From an uncultured Eubacteriales bacterium (GTDB lineage Bacteria > Bacillota > Clostridia > Oscillospirales > Acutalibacteraceae): a DNA stretch of 41,224 nucleotides. The position numbers and the translations under genes were made by a program. The notes below the pieces were generated by a model. The model worked only from the letters and a program-made list of their open reading frames with translations, did not search any database and was not told where the DNA came from. Location: NCBI GenBank assembly GCA_949296825.1, contig CASFQZ010000089.1, positions 1 to 41,224 on the forward strand, read 5' to 3'. Below, piece after piece: positions 34,642 through 41,164 of this stretch. Positions within the stretch are counted from its first letter, which is position 1. The number at the start of each line of letters is the position of its first letter.

Positions 34642-34719
34642 ATTGCCGGATTTGCTGGATAACCGGATGGCGCGGCTTATTTTTATACATTTTTGCTTTC
34701 ATTTTCTGCCTTTTTGCCC

Positions 34720-34748
34720 TTGACAAGCGGGGAAAAAAGATGTAATAT
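34720..34748 (+). promoter_or_regulatory. Promoter of the argF-carA-carB operon
   Basis: Perfect TTGACA (34720-34725), 17-bp spacer, TAATAT (34743-34748). Leader about 46 nt. Confidence 0.8.
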
Positions 34749-34759
34749 TATGCATAATA
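34746..34759. promoter_or_regulatory. Palindrome over the transcription start, ArgR-box-like
   Basis: TATTATGCATAATA is a perfect 14-bp palindrome overlapping the -10 hexamer and start site of the arginine/carbamoyl-phosphate operon. AT-rich imperfect palindromes with TGCATA or TGAAT half-sites are typical ARG boxes; repression by ArgR with arginine would fit the genes. ArgR itself is not in the window. Confidence 0.55.
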
Positions 34760-34800
34760 CATTTTACAAAAATCTGATACCGGAAAGCGAGGAAATGCCC

Positions 34801-35715
34801 TTGAAGCATTTGTTGAAGCTCGCCGATTTGTCCACAGAAGAGATCCTTTCGATCCTGGACACGGCGGATCAATTGAAGAGTGAAAAAAAGAAAGGAATCG
34901 CTCATCCGATTTTACAGGGAAAAACCCTGGGCATGATTTTTAGAAAATCCTCTACACGAACCAGAGTCAGCTTCGAGGTCGGCATGTATGACCTTGGAGG
35001 CGCGGCTCTGTTTTTGAGTTCGCAGGATCTGCAAATCGGCAGAGGCGAGCCGGTACAGGACACCGCCCGGGTGCTCTCCCGCTATCTGGACGGCATTATG
35101 ATCCGCACCTTCGACCAGGAAGAGGTCGAGGCGCTGGCGCAGTGCGGCTCCATCCCCGTCATTAACGGGCTGACCGATTATTGTCATCCCTGTCAGGTGC
35201 TGGCGGACCTGATGACCATCCGGGAGTTTAAGGGGGCGCTCGAGGGCAAAAAGCTCTGCTATATCGGCGACGGCAATAATATGGCAAACTCCCTGATTGC
35301 CGGCGGCATCAAAACCGGCATGAAGGTTGCTATCGCCTGCCCGGCGGATTATCAGCCCGACGAGGAGCTGATGCAGTGGGCGGCAAAGACCGGTGATTTT
35401 CTCTGTACGCCGGATATTGCAGAGGCTGCGGCGGGCGCCGATGTGCTATACACCGACGTCTGGGCGTCCATGGGGCAGGAGAGCGAAGCGCAGGAGCGCA
35501 AAAAGATTTTCAAGGGCTATCAGATCAACGATGAAGTCCTGTCAAACGCCGCGCCGGACGCGATGGTGCTGCACTGTCTGCCCGCTCACCGGGAAGAGGA
35601 GATCACCGCCAAGGTGTTTGAAGCGCACGCGAAGGAGATTTTTGAAGAGGCGGAAAATCGCCTGCACGCCCAGAAAGCGGTGCTGGTCAAGCTGATGGCG
35701 GAGCCAAAGCAATAA
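34801..35715 (+). CDS. argF: Ornithine carbamoyltransferase
   Basis: A 304-residue enzyme that makes citrulline from ornithine and carbamoyl phosphate. Carbamoyl-phosphate binding STRTR is at residues 51-55, followed by HPCQVLADLMT and the ornithine loop VWASMGQE; HCLPAHR near the C-terminus is also intact. I use TTG 34801 because GAGGA lies 7 nt upstream and the product starts MKHLLKLADLS as in the family; ATG 34795 is only 1 nt from that ribosome binding site. First gene of an operon with carA and carB, whose product is its substrate. Confidence 0.95.
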   Translation: MKHLLKLADLSTEEILSILDTADQLKSEKKKGIAHPILQGKTLGMIFRKSSTRTRVSFEVGMYDLGGAALFLSSQDLQIGRGEPVQDTARVLSRYLDGIMIRTFDQEEVEALAQCGSIPVINGLTDYCHPCQVLADLMTIREFKGALEGKKLCYIGDGNNMANSLIAGGIKTGMKVAIACPADYQPDEELMQWAAKTGDFLCTPDIAEAAAGADVLYTDVWASMGQESEAQERKKIFKGYQINDEVLSNAAPDAMVLHCLPAHREEEITAKVFEAHAKEIFEEAENRLHAQKAVLVKLMAEPKQ

Positions 35716-35736: not shown

Positions 35737-36804
35737 ATGAAAAAAGCCTATCTTGTGTTGGGCGACGGTACGGTTTTTGAGGGGACGCGTTTCGGCGCCG
35801 GCGGTGAAACGCTCGGCGAGCTGGTCTTCACCACCGGGATGTGCGGTTATATTGAGACGCTGACCGACCCGAGCTATTACGGGCAGATCGTCATGCAGAC
35901 CTTCCCCCTGATCGGCAATTACGGCATCATAGAGGAAGATTTTGAGGGTGAGTGCTGCATTAAGGGATATATCGTCCGCGAATGGTGCGACGCGCCGTCC
36001 AATTTCAGAAGTCAGTATGATGTAGATGCGTTTTTGAAGAAAAAGAATGTGGTCGGGCTTTGCGGTATTGATACCAGAAGCGTTACGCGTCTGATCCGGG
36101 AACACGGCGTGATGAACGCCATCATCTGCGACAAGGTGCCGGAGAATTTGGATTTTGTCAACGGCTATGTGATCCGGAATGCGGTGGAAAGTGTAACAAC
36201 CGAAAAGCCTTTTGTGCTAAAACCGGAGGGCGAAAAGAAATTTTCTGTCACGTTAATCGATTACGGTGCAAAACGCAACATTGTCCGCGAGCTGCTGCGC
36301 CGCGGATGTGAAATCACCGTGGTTCCCGCCACCATGACTGCCGAGGAAATTCTGGCAGCAAACCCGGACGGCATCATGCTGTCCAATGGTCCCGGCGACC
36401 CGGCGGAAAACACCTTCCAGATCGAACAGCTGCGCCGTCTCTTCGGCAAAAAACCGATTTTCGGTATCTGTCTGGGACACCAGCTTCTGGGTCTTGCCGA
36501 CGGCGGCAGGACCGTCAAATTGAAATACGGTCACCGTGGCGCGAACCAGCCGGTCAAAGAGGTCAACGGCACGCGCACCTATATCACCAGCCAGAACCAC
36601 GGCTATGCCCTGGTCGCCGACAGCGTGCGGCACGGCAAACCCAGCTATGTCAACGCCAACGACGGGACCAATGAGGGGATGGATTATCCGGAGCTGAATG
36701 CCTTCTCGGTGCAGTTCCATCCGGAGGTCTGCGCCGGTCCCAAGGACACGGAGTTTATTTTCGATAAATTTATCAAGAAGATGGAGGGTCAGGATCATGC
36801 CTAA
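35737..36804 (+). CDS. carA: Carbamoyl-phosphate synthase small subunit
   Basis: A 355-residue glutamine amidotransferase that supplies ammonia to CarB. The N-terminal half is the CPSase small-chain domain (GELVFTTGMCGYIETLTDPS). The C-terminal half is a class I GATase with Cys245 in FGICLGHQ, His328 and Glu330 in FHPE. AACGGAGG precedes the ATG by 9 nt. The stop overlaps the carB start by 8 nt. Length and motifs are complete. Confidence 0.97.
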   Translation: MKKAYLVLGDGTVFEGTRFGAGGETLGELVFTTGMCGYIETLTDPSYYGQIVMQTFPLIGNYGIIEEDFEGECCIKGYIVREWCDAPSNFRSQYDVDAFLKKKNVVGLCGIDTRSVTRLIREHGVMNAIICDKVPENLDFVNGYVIRNAVESVTTEKPFVLKPEGEKKFSVTLIDYGAKRNIVRELLRRGCEITVVPATMTAEEILAANPDGIMLSNGPGDPAENTFQIEQLRRLFGKKPIFGICLGHQLLGLADGGRTVKLKYGHRGANQPVKEVNGTRTYITSQNHGYALVADSVRHGKPSYVNANDGTNEGMDYPELNAFSVQFHPEVCAGPKDTEFIFDKFIKKMEGQDHA

Positions 36805-39800
36805 AGCGGAAGATATCAAAAAAGTACTGGTCATCGGTTCCGGCCCCATTGTCATCGGGCAGGCTGCGGAATTCGATTACGCGGGCGCTCAGGCGTGCCG
36901 CGTGCTGAAAAAAGCCGGCGTCGATGTGGTGCTGGTCAACTCCAATCCTGCCACCATTATGACCGACAAGGCGCTGGCGGATGAGATTTATCTGGAGCCG
37001 CTGACCGCGGAGACCGTCAAGCGCATCATTGAAAAAGAACGTCCGGACAGCCTTCTGGCGGGGCTCGGCGGTCAGACGGGGCTGACCATCGCCATGCAGC
37101 TCTCCAAAGAGGGATTTCTGGATAAAATGCATTGCCGTCTTCTGGGCACCAACGCCGAAGCCATCGACAAGGCGGAAGACCGCAAAATGTTCAAGGACAC
37201 CATGGCAGCCATCGGGCAGCCGACCATCCCTTCGGAGATCGCCAACACGGTGGAGGACTCGCTGAAAATCGCCGAACAGATCGGCTATCCGATCATCGTG
37301 CGTCCCGCCTTTACCCTGGGCGGCGCCGGCGGCGGCGTGGCGTACCATCCCGAAGAGCTGAAGGTCATCGCCCGCACCGGTCTGGATATGTCCCCGATCA
37401 ATCAGGTGCTGATCGAAAAATATATTTTCGGCTGGAAAGAAATTGAGTTTGAAACCATGCGTGACAGCGCGGGCAATGTGATCGCCGTTTGCAGCATGGA
37501 AAACTTTGATCCGGTCGGTGTGCATACCGGCGACAGCATTGTCGTCGCCCCGGCGCTGACGCTTTCCGACAAGGAATTTCAGATGCTGCGCAAGGCGGCG
37601 CTGGATATCATTTCCGCCCTGGGCATCGTCGGCGGCTGCAACTGCCAGTTTGCGCTGAATCCCGACAGCTTTGAGTACGCGGTCATTGAGGTCAACCCCC
37701 GGGTGTCCCGTTCCTCCGCGCTGGCGAGCAAGGCGACCGGGTACCCCATTGCCAAAATCACCGCCCAGATTGCGCTGGGCTATACGCTGGATGAGATTCC
37801 CAACGATATTACCGGCAAAACCTGCGCCTGCTTTGAGCCGACCGTCGATTACTGTGTCGTCAAATTCCCGAAGTGGCCCTTTGATAAATTCATCGGCTCC
37901 AACCGCACCTTAGGCACCCAGATGAAAGCCACCGGCGAAGTGATGAGCATCGCGCCCTCCTTTGAGATGGCGATTATGAAAGCCGTGCGCGGCGCGGAAA
38001 TTTCGCTGGACACGCTGAATCGTCCTGCGACCGGCGATGACCGTCCGATCCGCGAGCGGCTCAAGGATATCAACGACATCCGCCTGTTTACGATTTTTGA
38101 GGCGATCAAGGCGGGCGTTTCGGTCGATGAAATTTTTGAGATTACCCGCGTGGACCGCTGGTTCCTCAGTAAGCTCAAAAAGCTGGCGGACTATGAATCC
38201 GCCATCGCCGGGAAGGGAAGTCTGACCGAGGAGGAGTACCTGCGCGGCAAGAAGCTTGGCTATCTGGATAAATCCCTGAAGCAGATCAGCGGTGCGTCCG
38301 AGATCCCGCACCGCAACGCTGTCTATAAAATGGTGGATACCTGCGGCGCGGAGTTCGACGCCCGCACGCCCTATTTCTATTCCAGCTATGATGATTTTTG
38401 CGAGGCGCGGCATTTTATCCGCAAGCATACCAAACCGCGCATCATCGTCATCGGCTCCGGTCCGATTCGCATCGGACAGGGAATTGAGTTCGACTATTCC
38501 TCCGTCCATTGCGTCTGGACGCTGCAGGAGGAAGGGTATGAGGTCATTATCATCAACAATAACCCCGAGACGGTCTCCACCGACTACGATACCTCCGACC
38601 GGCTGTATTTTGAGCCGCTGACGCCGGAGGACGTGATGAATGTTGTCGAGGTCGAAAAGCCCGAGGGCGTGGTGGTCGCCTTTGGCGGTCAGACCGCCAT
38701 CAAGCTGACCAAGTTCCTGGATTCTCAGGGCATTCGCATCTTTGGCACCTCCGCCGAGGGCATTGACACGGCAGAAGACCGGGAAAAGTTTGACGAGCTG
38801 CTGGAAAAATTCAATATCCGCCGTCCGCGGGGCATGGGCGTTCTGACTATGGACGAGGCGCTTGCCGCCGCCGAAAAGCTCGGTTATCCGGTGCTGCTGC
38901 GTCCCTCCTATGTCATCGGCGGTCAGAATATGGTCATTGCCCATGAAAAGGAAGATGTGATCAACTATATGAACATCATCCTGGCGGGCAATATCGAAAA
39001 CCCGGTGCTGATCGATAAATATATGATGGGTACCGAGCTGGAAGTGGACGTTATTTCCGACGGCGACGATGTGCTGATTCCCGGCATTATGGAGCATGTG
39101 GAGCGCGCCGGCGTCCACAGCGGCGATTCCATTGCCGTCTATCCGCCCTATAATCTGAACGATAAGATGCTCCATACCATCATCGATTCGTCCGAAAAGC
39201 TGGCGCGTTCCCTTGGCACCAAGGGTCTGGTTAATATCCAGTATCTGATTTATAAAAACGAGTTATATGTCATTGAGGTCAATCCCCGCGCCTCCCGTAC
39301 CGTGCCCTATATCAGCAAGGTGACCGGCGTGCCGATGGTCGATCTGGCATCCAAGGTCATGATCGGCAAAAAGCTCAGGGAGCTGGGCTATGGCACCGGA
39401 CTTTACAAAACGCCGCCCTATTTCACGGTAAAGGTGCCGGTGTTCTCCTTTGAAAAACTGACCGACGCCAACTCAATCCTCGGACCGGAAATGAAATCCA
39501 CCGGCGAGGTGCTGGGCATCGGCAGCGACATCAATGAGGCGCTCTTTAAGGGGCTGACCTCCGCCGGGTTTAAGATCGTCACCCACAGCGAAACCGGCTC
39601 TTCCGGCGTGTTTATCAGCGTCGATGAGCATGACCACTGGGAGCTGTTTCCGCTGGTGAAAAAGTTTGCCGATCTGGGCATGAAGCTCTATGCCACCAGA
39701 GGCACCGCCGAAACCATCCGATCCTTTGGTTTTGAGGTGACGCAGGTTACCGGCATGACCGAAAGCCATGAGATCTTCGATTTGCTGGAGAGCGGGAACA

Positions 39801-40840
39801 TTCAATATATCATCTACACCGGTGCGCTGTATGACGCGACGGTCGGTGAATACCGCCTGCTGCACAAACGGGCGCTGGAGCTTTCCGTCACCTGCGTCAC
39901 ATCGCTGGATACGGCGAATGTGCTGGCAGATATCATCACCGGCCGCTATAACCAGGGCAACACCGAGCTGGTGGATATTAACCGCCTGCGCAAGGAGCCG
40001 ATGCAGCTGCACTTTGTAAAGATGGAAGGTTCGGGCAATGATTATATTGTGATCGACGACCCTAAGGAGCAGATCAACTGCCCCGAGGCGCTGAGTGTCA
40101 AGTTCTGCGACCGCCATTACGGCATCGGCGCGGACGGGCTCATCTTAATCCGAAGCTCCGAACAGGCGGACGCGGCGATGAAGATTTATAATGTGGACGG
40201 CTCCGAGGGCAAGATGGCGGGTAACGGCATCCGCTGCGTCGCCAAATATCTGTACGACAGCGGCAAGGTCAAAAAGGACCGGATGCGCATCGATACCGCC
40301 AGCGGCGTCAAACAGGTCAGCGTTTTCACCATCAATGACAAGGTCAGCTCCGCCAGCGTCGATATGGGCAAAGCCGTGTTCGACGCCCGCGCCATTCCGG
40401 TAAAGGCGGACGCGGCGACGGTGATCAATTATCCCGCCAAAATCGGCGGCGAAGGGTATAAGATCAACTGCGTCTCCATCGGAAACCCCCATTGCGTGGT
40501 CTTTACCAATAAGGTGGACGCTCTGGATATCGATAAAATCGGTCCCAGGTTTGAAAACGCGCCGCTGTTCCCCGAGCGTGTCAACACCGAGTTTGTGGAT
40601 GTGATCAACTCCACCACGCTGAAAATGCGCGTTTATGAGCGCGGCAACGGCGAGACGCCCGCCTGCGGTACCGGCGCCTGTGCCGCCGCCGCTGTGGCGG
40701 TGCTGAACGGTTATTGCAAAAAGGGCGAGGATATCTCCATCAAGGTCAAGGGCGGCGATCTGACCGTCAATTACACCGACGAAGCCATCACCCTGACCGG
40801 TCCCGCCAAGCTGATCTACAGCGGCGTTGCCGAATATTAA
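36797..40840 (+). CDS. carB-dapF: CarB-DapF fusion: carbamoyl-phosphate synthase large subunit with C-terminal diaminopimelate epimerase domain
   Basis: A single 1347-residue frame. Residues 1-~1068 are a complete CarB: two homologous ATP-grasp halves (each starting [20 protein letters not shown] or [20 protein letters not shown]) and a C-terminal MGS-like allosteric domain (~940-1060). Residues 1069-1347 are a full-length DapF starting [19 protein letters not shown], with the second catalytic Cys intact ([10 protein letters not shown], Cys1290). The first active-site Cys is replaced: the motif reads [16 protein letters not shown] with Ala1141 where DapF has Cys. CarB makes carbamoyl phosphate; DapF converts LL- to meso-DAP. 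AAGGAG lies 3 nt before Met1069, so separate internal initiation is conceivable but the spacing is short. ATG 36797 overlaps carA by 8 nt. No stop or frameshift separates the halves. Confidence 0.95.
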   Translation: [1347 protein letters not shown]

Positions 40841-40957
40841 GTCCCTACGGCGCAACAGGCGCTTCTGACGAAATACGTCGGAAACGGACAATAAAGCCCC
40901 CTTCAGGATAAAAAAATCCCAAGGGGGCTTTTTGTGTCGCGAAGACGCCGTAGGTAC
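40841..40957. repeat. 117-bp segment bounded by 12-bp imperfect inverted repeats
   Basis: GTCCCTACGGCG (40841-40852) and CGCCGTAGGTAC (40946-40957) are inverted repeats with one mismatch, directly after the carB-dapF stop. Between them lie a small GACG/CGTC hairpin and the terminator. No coding sequence is seen inside. The layout could be a MITE-like element or only an extended terminator region. Confidence 0.45.
40893..40934 (+). terminator. Terminator of the argF-carA-carB-dapF operon
   Basis: AAAGCCCCCTT (40893-40903) pairs with AAGGGGGCTTT (40921-40931), followed by TTTTTG. Confidence 0.88.
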
Positions 40958-41022: not shown

Positions 41023-41164
41023 CGGAAAACCGCCCTTCCATGGACGGAAAACCGACCTTCCATGGGCGGAAAACCGACCCCCAAAAAGCCGGAAAACCGA
41101 CCCCCGAAAGCCGGAAAACCGACCCCGGTGATTGCGAAAATGAATCCCCCCCGTTGCGAAAATG
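41023..41164. repeat. Seven-unit tandem array with 22-bp period and phased A-tracts
   Basis: CGGAAAACCG occurs at 41023, 41045, 41067, 41090 and 41112, then TTGCGAAAATG at 41132 and 41154. The AAAA tracts start at 41026, 41048, 41070, 41093, 41115, 41137 and 41159, a period of 22 (once 23) bp. The core has CGG/CCG symmetry around A4; the 8-12 bp between cores vary, two containing CTTCCATGG. The period is not a multiple of three, so it is not a coding repeat. AT-rich sequence follows to the window end. The stretch 40958-41022 before it holds nothing I recognise. Confidence 0.85.

Follow-up and report, generated by a model that had tools for sequence, protein, structure and literature searches.

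The window analysed here—a stretch of 41,224 nucleotides from an uncultured Eubacteriales bacterium—carries a gene in which the large subunit of carbamoyl-phosphate synthase (CPS), CarB, continues in the same reading frame into a domain of the diaminopimelate epimerase (DapF) type. Catalysis by DapF uses two cysteines, Cys73 and Cys217 in the numbering of the Haemophilus influenzae enzyme, the first of which is absent from the fused domain. Judged from its sequence, the gene may well combine a very likely active CPS large subunit with a pseudo-epimerase domain maintained by selection and probably acting as an amino-acid-binding regulator, the chance of this reading as a whole being put at about even. 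The domain would thus probably sense or support rather than make a cell-wall precursor, because one of its catalytic cysteines has been lost and yet it is still under selection.

The fused frame and its locus

The original prediction that CarB and DapF share one uninterrupted frame is borne out, since a single open frame on the + strand runs from the ATG at 36797 to the TAA at 40838-40840 (1347 codons with no internal stop) and both parts match their NCBIfam profiles above the cut-off. Residues 1-1048 match CarB (NF003671 with 1431.9 bits; TIGR01369 with 1393.7 bits, cut-off 1027), and residues 1072-1345 match DapF over the full length of the family (TIGR00652 with 276 bits, curated cut-off 114.65). 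The model of the bifunctional DapF/glutamate racemase (NF038284) was rejected, its 114.7 bits lying under the curated cut-off of 350. The features of the locus are as follows:

34693..35715, +, argF, ornithine carbamoyltransferase (TIGR00658, 416.2 bits, cut-off 280.85); coordinates from the first TTG, the start being putative
35737..36804, +, carA, CPS small subunit (NF009475, 430 bits, cut-off 221)
36797..40840, +, carB::dapF fused frame, 1347 amino acids plus TAA; same architecture in relatives
36797..40000, +, CarB part, residues 1-1068 (TIGR01369 above cut-off; 1017.1 bits against the large chain of 1bxr)
39641..39901, +, MGS-like allosteric domain of CarB, residues 949-1035 (PF02142, 41.2 bits, cut-off 24.1)
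39899..39901, +, Thr1035, aligned with Thr1042 of Escherichia coli CarB (1a9x alignment, weak here at 25 bits)
39902..40000, +, segment between Thr1035 and the DapF domain, residues 1036-1068
39992..39997, +, AAGGAG, proposed internal ribosome-binding site, with 3 nt spacing to the ATG; not conserved
40001..40837, +, DapF-like domain, residues 1069-1347 (TIGR00652; matches to DapF structures in the PDB); pseudo-epimerase by its residues
40217..40219, +, Ala1141 (GCG), at the position of catalytic Cys73 of H. influenzae DapF
40664..40666, +, Cys1290 (TGC), the second catalytic cysteine (Cys217), kept, in the motif ACGTGAC
40894..40934, +, terminator-like hairpin AAGCCCCCTT...AAGGGGGCTTTTT, 3' of the fused gene, read straight from the sequence; its loop exceeds the length limit of the hairpin scan, which did not report it

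The 3' end of carA overlaps the start of the fused gene by 8 nt, the CarA partner of the fused CarB being thus encoded alongside it, and argF upstream likely belongs to the same operon. A CarA match also lies upstream in 77 of the 88 fused loci having at least 1.2 kb of upstream sequence. Between the fused gene and the end of the window, 22-bp tandem repeats (CGGAAAACCGACC...) occupy positions 41023-41126.

The CarB half is very likely active in carbamoyl-phosphate synthesis, as may be judged from the 20 of 37 genomes checked, that of the window among them, in which no CarB other than the fused copy was found. Ornithine, UMP and IMP bind to the C-terminal domain (933-1073) of E. coli CarB, where Thr1042 touches the activator ornithine (PMC6245113). 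The residue aligned with this threonine, Thr1035, does not vary among the 72 fused proteins of alignment A2 (T131 there), and the DapF domain begins 34 residues after it.

With regard to the junction itself, at Met1069 (codon at 40001), the AAGGAG preceding it had been taken for a relic of a separate gene start that may still allow some independent DapF. The motif does exist 3 nt before Met1069, but it is altered to AAAGAG in one of the close relatives (L003) and absent in another (L004). A conserved internal DapF start is not supported. Met1069 is shared by just 4 of the 33 aligned loci (window included); of 243 fused junctions, 48 show a methionine near the start of the DapF domain, and only 18 combine a start codon with an SD-like motif lying 4-11 nt ahead of it. 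In five loci with separate carB and dapF genes (L147-L151), SD-like motifs are found at the usual distance before the dapF ATG.

Distribution and evolution of the fusion

How wide the fusion is among clostridial genomes had been posed as a question together with the original prediction, and it turned out to be common. Within the genus, the full-length fused frame is present in six of the seven genomes, including that of the window, the match in the seventh (G002) being split across two contigs. In the wider samples—which overlap, include the window and were counted by hand among the matches listed, so that all values are lower bounds—CarB and DapF share one frame in at least 90 of 300 genomes of the family, at least 130 of 345 of the order (124 of these with a frame of at least 1000 residues), at least 39 of 291 of the class at E 1e-95 (35 with a frame of at least 1000 residues) and at least 14 of 299 of the phylum at E 1e-100. 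The named carriers are for the most part Oscillospiraceae, Ruminococcaceae and other Clostridia assembled from metagenomes; Ruminococcus sp. FC2018, whose record has no MAG label, is also among them. The fusion occurs in single-contig genomes too (G526, G802, G1071 and G1095). A simple loss of the stop codon in one strain is contradicted by the same frame recurring at several taxonomic levels, from genus to phylum, and an assembly error by this recurrence together with the single-contig genomes; the caveat that the fusion might merely reflect a lost ancestral stop codon or a faulty assembly is thus hardly credible. A real fusion as widespread as this goes beyond the loss of a single stop codon.

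The comparison of gene order proposed at the same time found relatives of the expected kind, since in L147-L151 carB and dapF are distinct genes, the second lying a short way behind the first. It should be noted that the DapF of this separate pair keeps both cysteines and belongs to a different DapF clade, and that two genomes (G007 and G264) possess a separate carB-dapF pair besides a Cys73-less fusion. Three Cys73-less fusions (L212, L213 and L215) lie on contigs titled Treponema or Spirochaetaceae, reflecting either horizontal transfer or mis-binning; L213 and L215 form a supported pair of their own in the tree described below.

Among four members of the genus, the fused domain has a dN/dS of 0.026-0.259, compared with 0.049-0.142 in standalone DapF and 0.019-0.090 in CarB, dS being near saturation (0.9-1.9) in all genus pairs. 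L005 enters three of these comparisons, and there it is the fused domain that changes faster (0.147-0.259, versus 0.105-0.142 in standalone DapF). As estimated from these ratios, the DapF domain of the window is under purifying selection and is not decaying.

A quick tree of 119 representatives, prepared with both cysteine columns masked, places the window in a supported group of 55 representatives, none of which has Cys73. The state of Cys73 requires 13 changes in all, three of them being forced by well-supported branches and loss not being distinguishable from gain, and the fused or separate state requires four, with the root unplaced. The residue is missing in the lineage of the window and, apparently more than once, elsewhere, for the most part in genomes that also have a standalone DapF or a meso-DAP dehydrogenase (Ddh). 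Concerning the surroundings, dapL lies directly downstream in 7 of 28 loci with both cysteines having at least 1.3 kb of downstream sequence, in none of 60 lost-cysteine loci and in none of seven unclassified ones. Two Cys73-less fusions looked at closely adjoin arginine genes, namely argD-argF-carA (L162) and argH-argF-carA (L201).

Catalytic cysteines, substrate pocket and other routes to meso-DAP

The active-site signature of DapF, as given in PMC8225329, is broken in the window exactly at the catalytic cysteine, which is replaced by Ala1141. The same position is occupied by Gly in at least two other members of the genus, and the first catalytic cysteine is missing from all 33 fused loci first aligned, including the window. 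In the larger set of 233 fused domains—with identical sequences merged, one short match (L207) left out, and L053-L129, L133-L146, L235-L267 and L270-L274 being pieces of about 1 kb whose fused status comes from the open-frame listing of the search and not from the whole gene—Cys73 is missing in 158, substituted by Ala, Gly, Ser, Phe, Thr or Tyr, and only Cys217 is missing in four. Among the 158 domains, 150 keep Cys217 and the other eight are without both cysteines, the latter including the single-contig genomes G526 (GS), G1071 and G1095 (both SA). All 20 separate DapFs examined have both. Having both cysteines, used here as the mark of a bifunctional CarB/DapF, is seen in 71 of the 233 fused domains, which may plausibly be bifunctional, and not in the window, where Cys73 is absent. 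One both-cysteine case, G739, shows only a 644-residue frame well inside a contig, so that its CarB may be interrupted; another (L152, on G285:C17) is followed by a standalone DapF, some 2.8 kb further along the same strand.

In PddB, a DapF-like racemase, changing either catalytic cysteine to Ser leaves less than 0.1% of activity, according to PMC8225329, and since even Ser is so damaging, a domain of the Ala type is very unlikely to be active. An active epimerase in the window was accordingly rejected on residues alone (Ala1141 for Cys73), and we infer that its domain would have no epimerase activity.

The positions N64, N157, N190, E208, R209, G74, N75, G218 and T219 are conserved to 95-100% in the 158 Cys73-less domains, for which the median over 277 columns is 70%. 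Five of them—N64, N157, N190, E208 and R209, all present in the window and conserved to 95-98%—are substrate contacts, as are the positions of Asn11 and Gln44, which hold, respectively, the reactive and the distal amino group of the substrate (all these roles from PMC8225329). The Asn11 and Gln44 positions are relaxed to 79-80%, the latter being Asp in these domains. Contrasting the conservation in Cys73-less and other domains yielded no clear new motif.

The genome of the window encodes, on contig C58, a standalone DapF that has both cysteines and is next to a gene resembling dapL (LL-diaminopimelate aminotransferase), labelled so for its similarity to the gene of L192, which passes the cut-off of TIGR03542; this genome thus needs no epimerase from the fused domain. 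The physical link between nitrogen assimilation and peptidoglycan precursor supply that had been envisaged is therefore unlikely for the window, in view of both the change of Cys73 to Ala and the other DapF, while a bifunctional protein is plausible in the lineages keeping both cysteines.

Across 114 genomes, standalone DapF or Ddh was found in 69 of 74 with a lost-cysteine fused domain versus 27 of 40 with both cysteines (Fisher p 0.0007, shared ancestry being ignored and standalone DapFs being counted regardless of their own cysteines). In the remaining 13 of the 40 both-cysteine genomes, the fused domain is the only route to meso-DAP found. Because 27 of the 40 also have another route, redundancy alone does not bring about the loss of the cysteine. 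When ancestry was taken into account on a 75-member tree, no signal emerged: the independent pairs numbered just 3-6, too few to give any power, and among them changes of the second trait in the opposite direction slightly outnumbered those in the same direction. Neither a standalone DapF above the cut-off nor Ddh was found in the genus g47 (G052, G170 and G247), whose domain is of the Ala type, and neither was found in G307 and G416, where the fused domain is without Cys217 only (C217S).

Possible role and comparison with known systems

The most favoured scenario would begin with an active DapF, probably fused to CarB first, from which Cys73 was then plausibly lost where another route to meso-DAP (standalone DapF or Ddh) existed; this order of events is one that we infer. 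The amino-acid pocket would still bind a diamino acid, such as LL- or meso-DAP, and pass its state on to the neighbouring ornithine/UMP allosteric domain, by which the supply of carbamoyl phosphate could be tuned for arginine, in keeping with the argF-carA-carB operon, and for pyrimidines too where there is no other CarB. DapF takes on a closed form when its ligand is bound (PMC12039745) and, were the pocket tied to the allosteric domain, the level of the diamino acid could therefore reach CPS. That the dead epimerase is such a sensor, with LL-/meso-DAP or a related ligand closing the domain and altering CPS activity, is put forward tentatively, its chance being rated somewhat below even.

The domain could instead be a structural or oligomerisation module, the dimerisation of the DapF fold shaping the assembly of CPS, or the domain pairing with, anchoring or regulating a standalone DapF, with no ligand sensing. 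This is considered rather unlikely: its retention under selection despite the missing Cys73 would suit a module, as would the ability of E. coli DapF to stimulate RppH by binding (PMC4227774), but the 95-98% conservation of the five residues contacting the distal end of DAP goes beyond what would be expected of a pure scaffold, and in 8 of the 50 genomes whose fused domain is Cys73-less there is no standalone DapF to pair with. Lower still stands a one-base enzyme, in which Cys217 alone would act on a DAP-like amino acid, by proton exchange or by elimination, in a new reaction tied to arginine synthesis. Although the retention of Cys217 in most Cys73-less domains would accord with it, this is improbable in view of the eight domains that lack Cys217 as well, those of the three single-contig genomes among them, and of a residue at the Cys73 position that varies (A, G, S, F, T or Y) unlike that of a tuned new active site. 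Still less credit is given to a protein of the window remaining bifunctional through an epimerase that works without Cys73; the strong overall similarity to DapF and the genus g47, where no other DapF or Ddh was found, speak for it, but an Ala side chain is incapable of acting as a base, the Ser variants of PddB are practically inactive (PMC8225329) and another DapF exists in the genome of the window. A neutral relic or artefact, to which the many metagenome-assembled relatives could point, is hardly credible with the same architecture at the family, order, class and phylum levels and in single-contig genomes, and with purifying selection on the fused domain.

The architecture is a common one (at least 39 of the 291 genomes of the class), in which an essential enzyme bears a domain annotated as a second enzyme and, by its residues, often dead, so that the automatic annotation as DapF would mislead for most of the sampled fused copies (the 158 without Cys73). 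Because this one residue has apparently been lost repeatedly, the fusions form a natural series in which the change from enzyme to regulatory domain can be followed. If DAP is bound, the state of the cell wall would have a way of setting the flux to arginine and pyrimidines and, if the sensor reading is true, the lysine/cell-wall and arginine/pyrimidine pathways would be coupled directly by allostery, through repeated loss of a catalytic residue. The open-licence PMC literature pairing CarB with DapF yielded no paper describing a CarB-DapF fusion; a widespread CPS with a selected pseudo-epimerase domain appears to be undescribed there and, for the copy in the window, it replaces the unlikely metabolic link.

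Compared with DapF (TIGR00652, PF01678), the domain of the window shares the full-length match, the second catalytic cysteine and most of the substrate-contact residues, but it is fused to CarB and has Ala for Cys73. With CarB (1bxr, 1a9x), the protein has in common the models above their cut-offs, the MGS domain, the threonine aligned with Thr1042 and the adjoining carA, whereas its approximately 279 additional C-terminal residues, forming the DapF-like domain, set it apart. The fusions with both cysteines (for example Ruminococcus sp. FC2018, L192) show the same architecture with carA upstream; they differ in keeping both catalytic cysteines, and in L192 in having dapL directly downstream, and are probably bifunctional. 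Human CPS1 offers a precedent, being itself a CPS with a retained but catalytically dead part, the glutaminase-like S2 domain, which has Ser294 in place of the catalytic cysteine (PMC4655335), although there the dead domain is a glutaminase in the N-terminal moiety, whereas in the window it is an amino-acid epimerase at the C-terminus.
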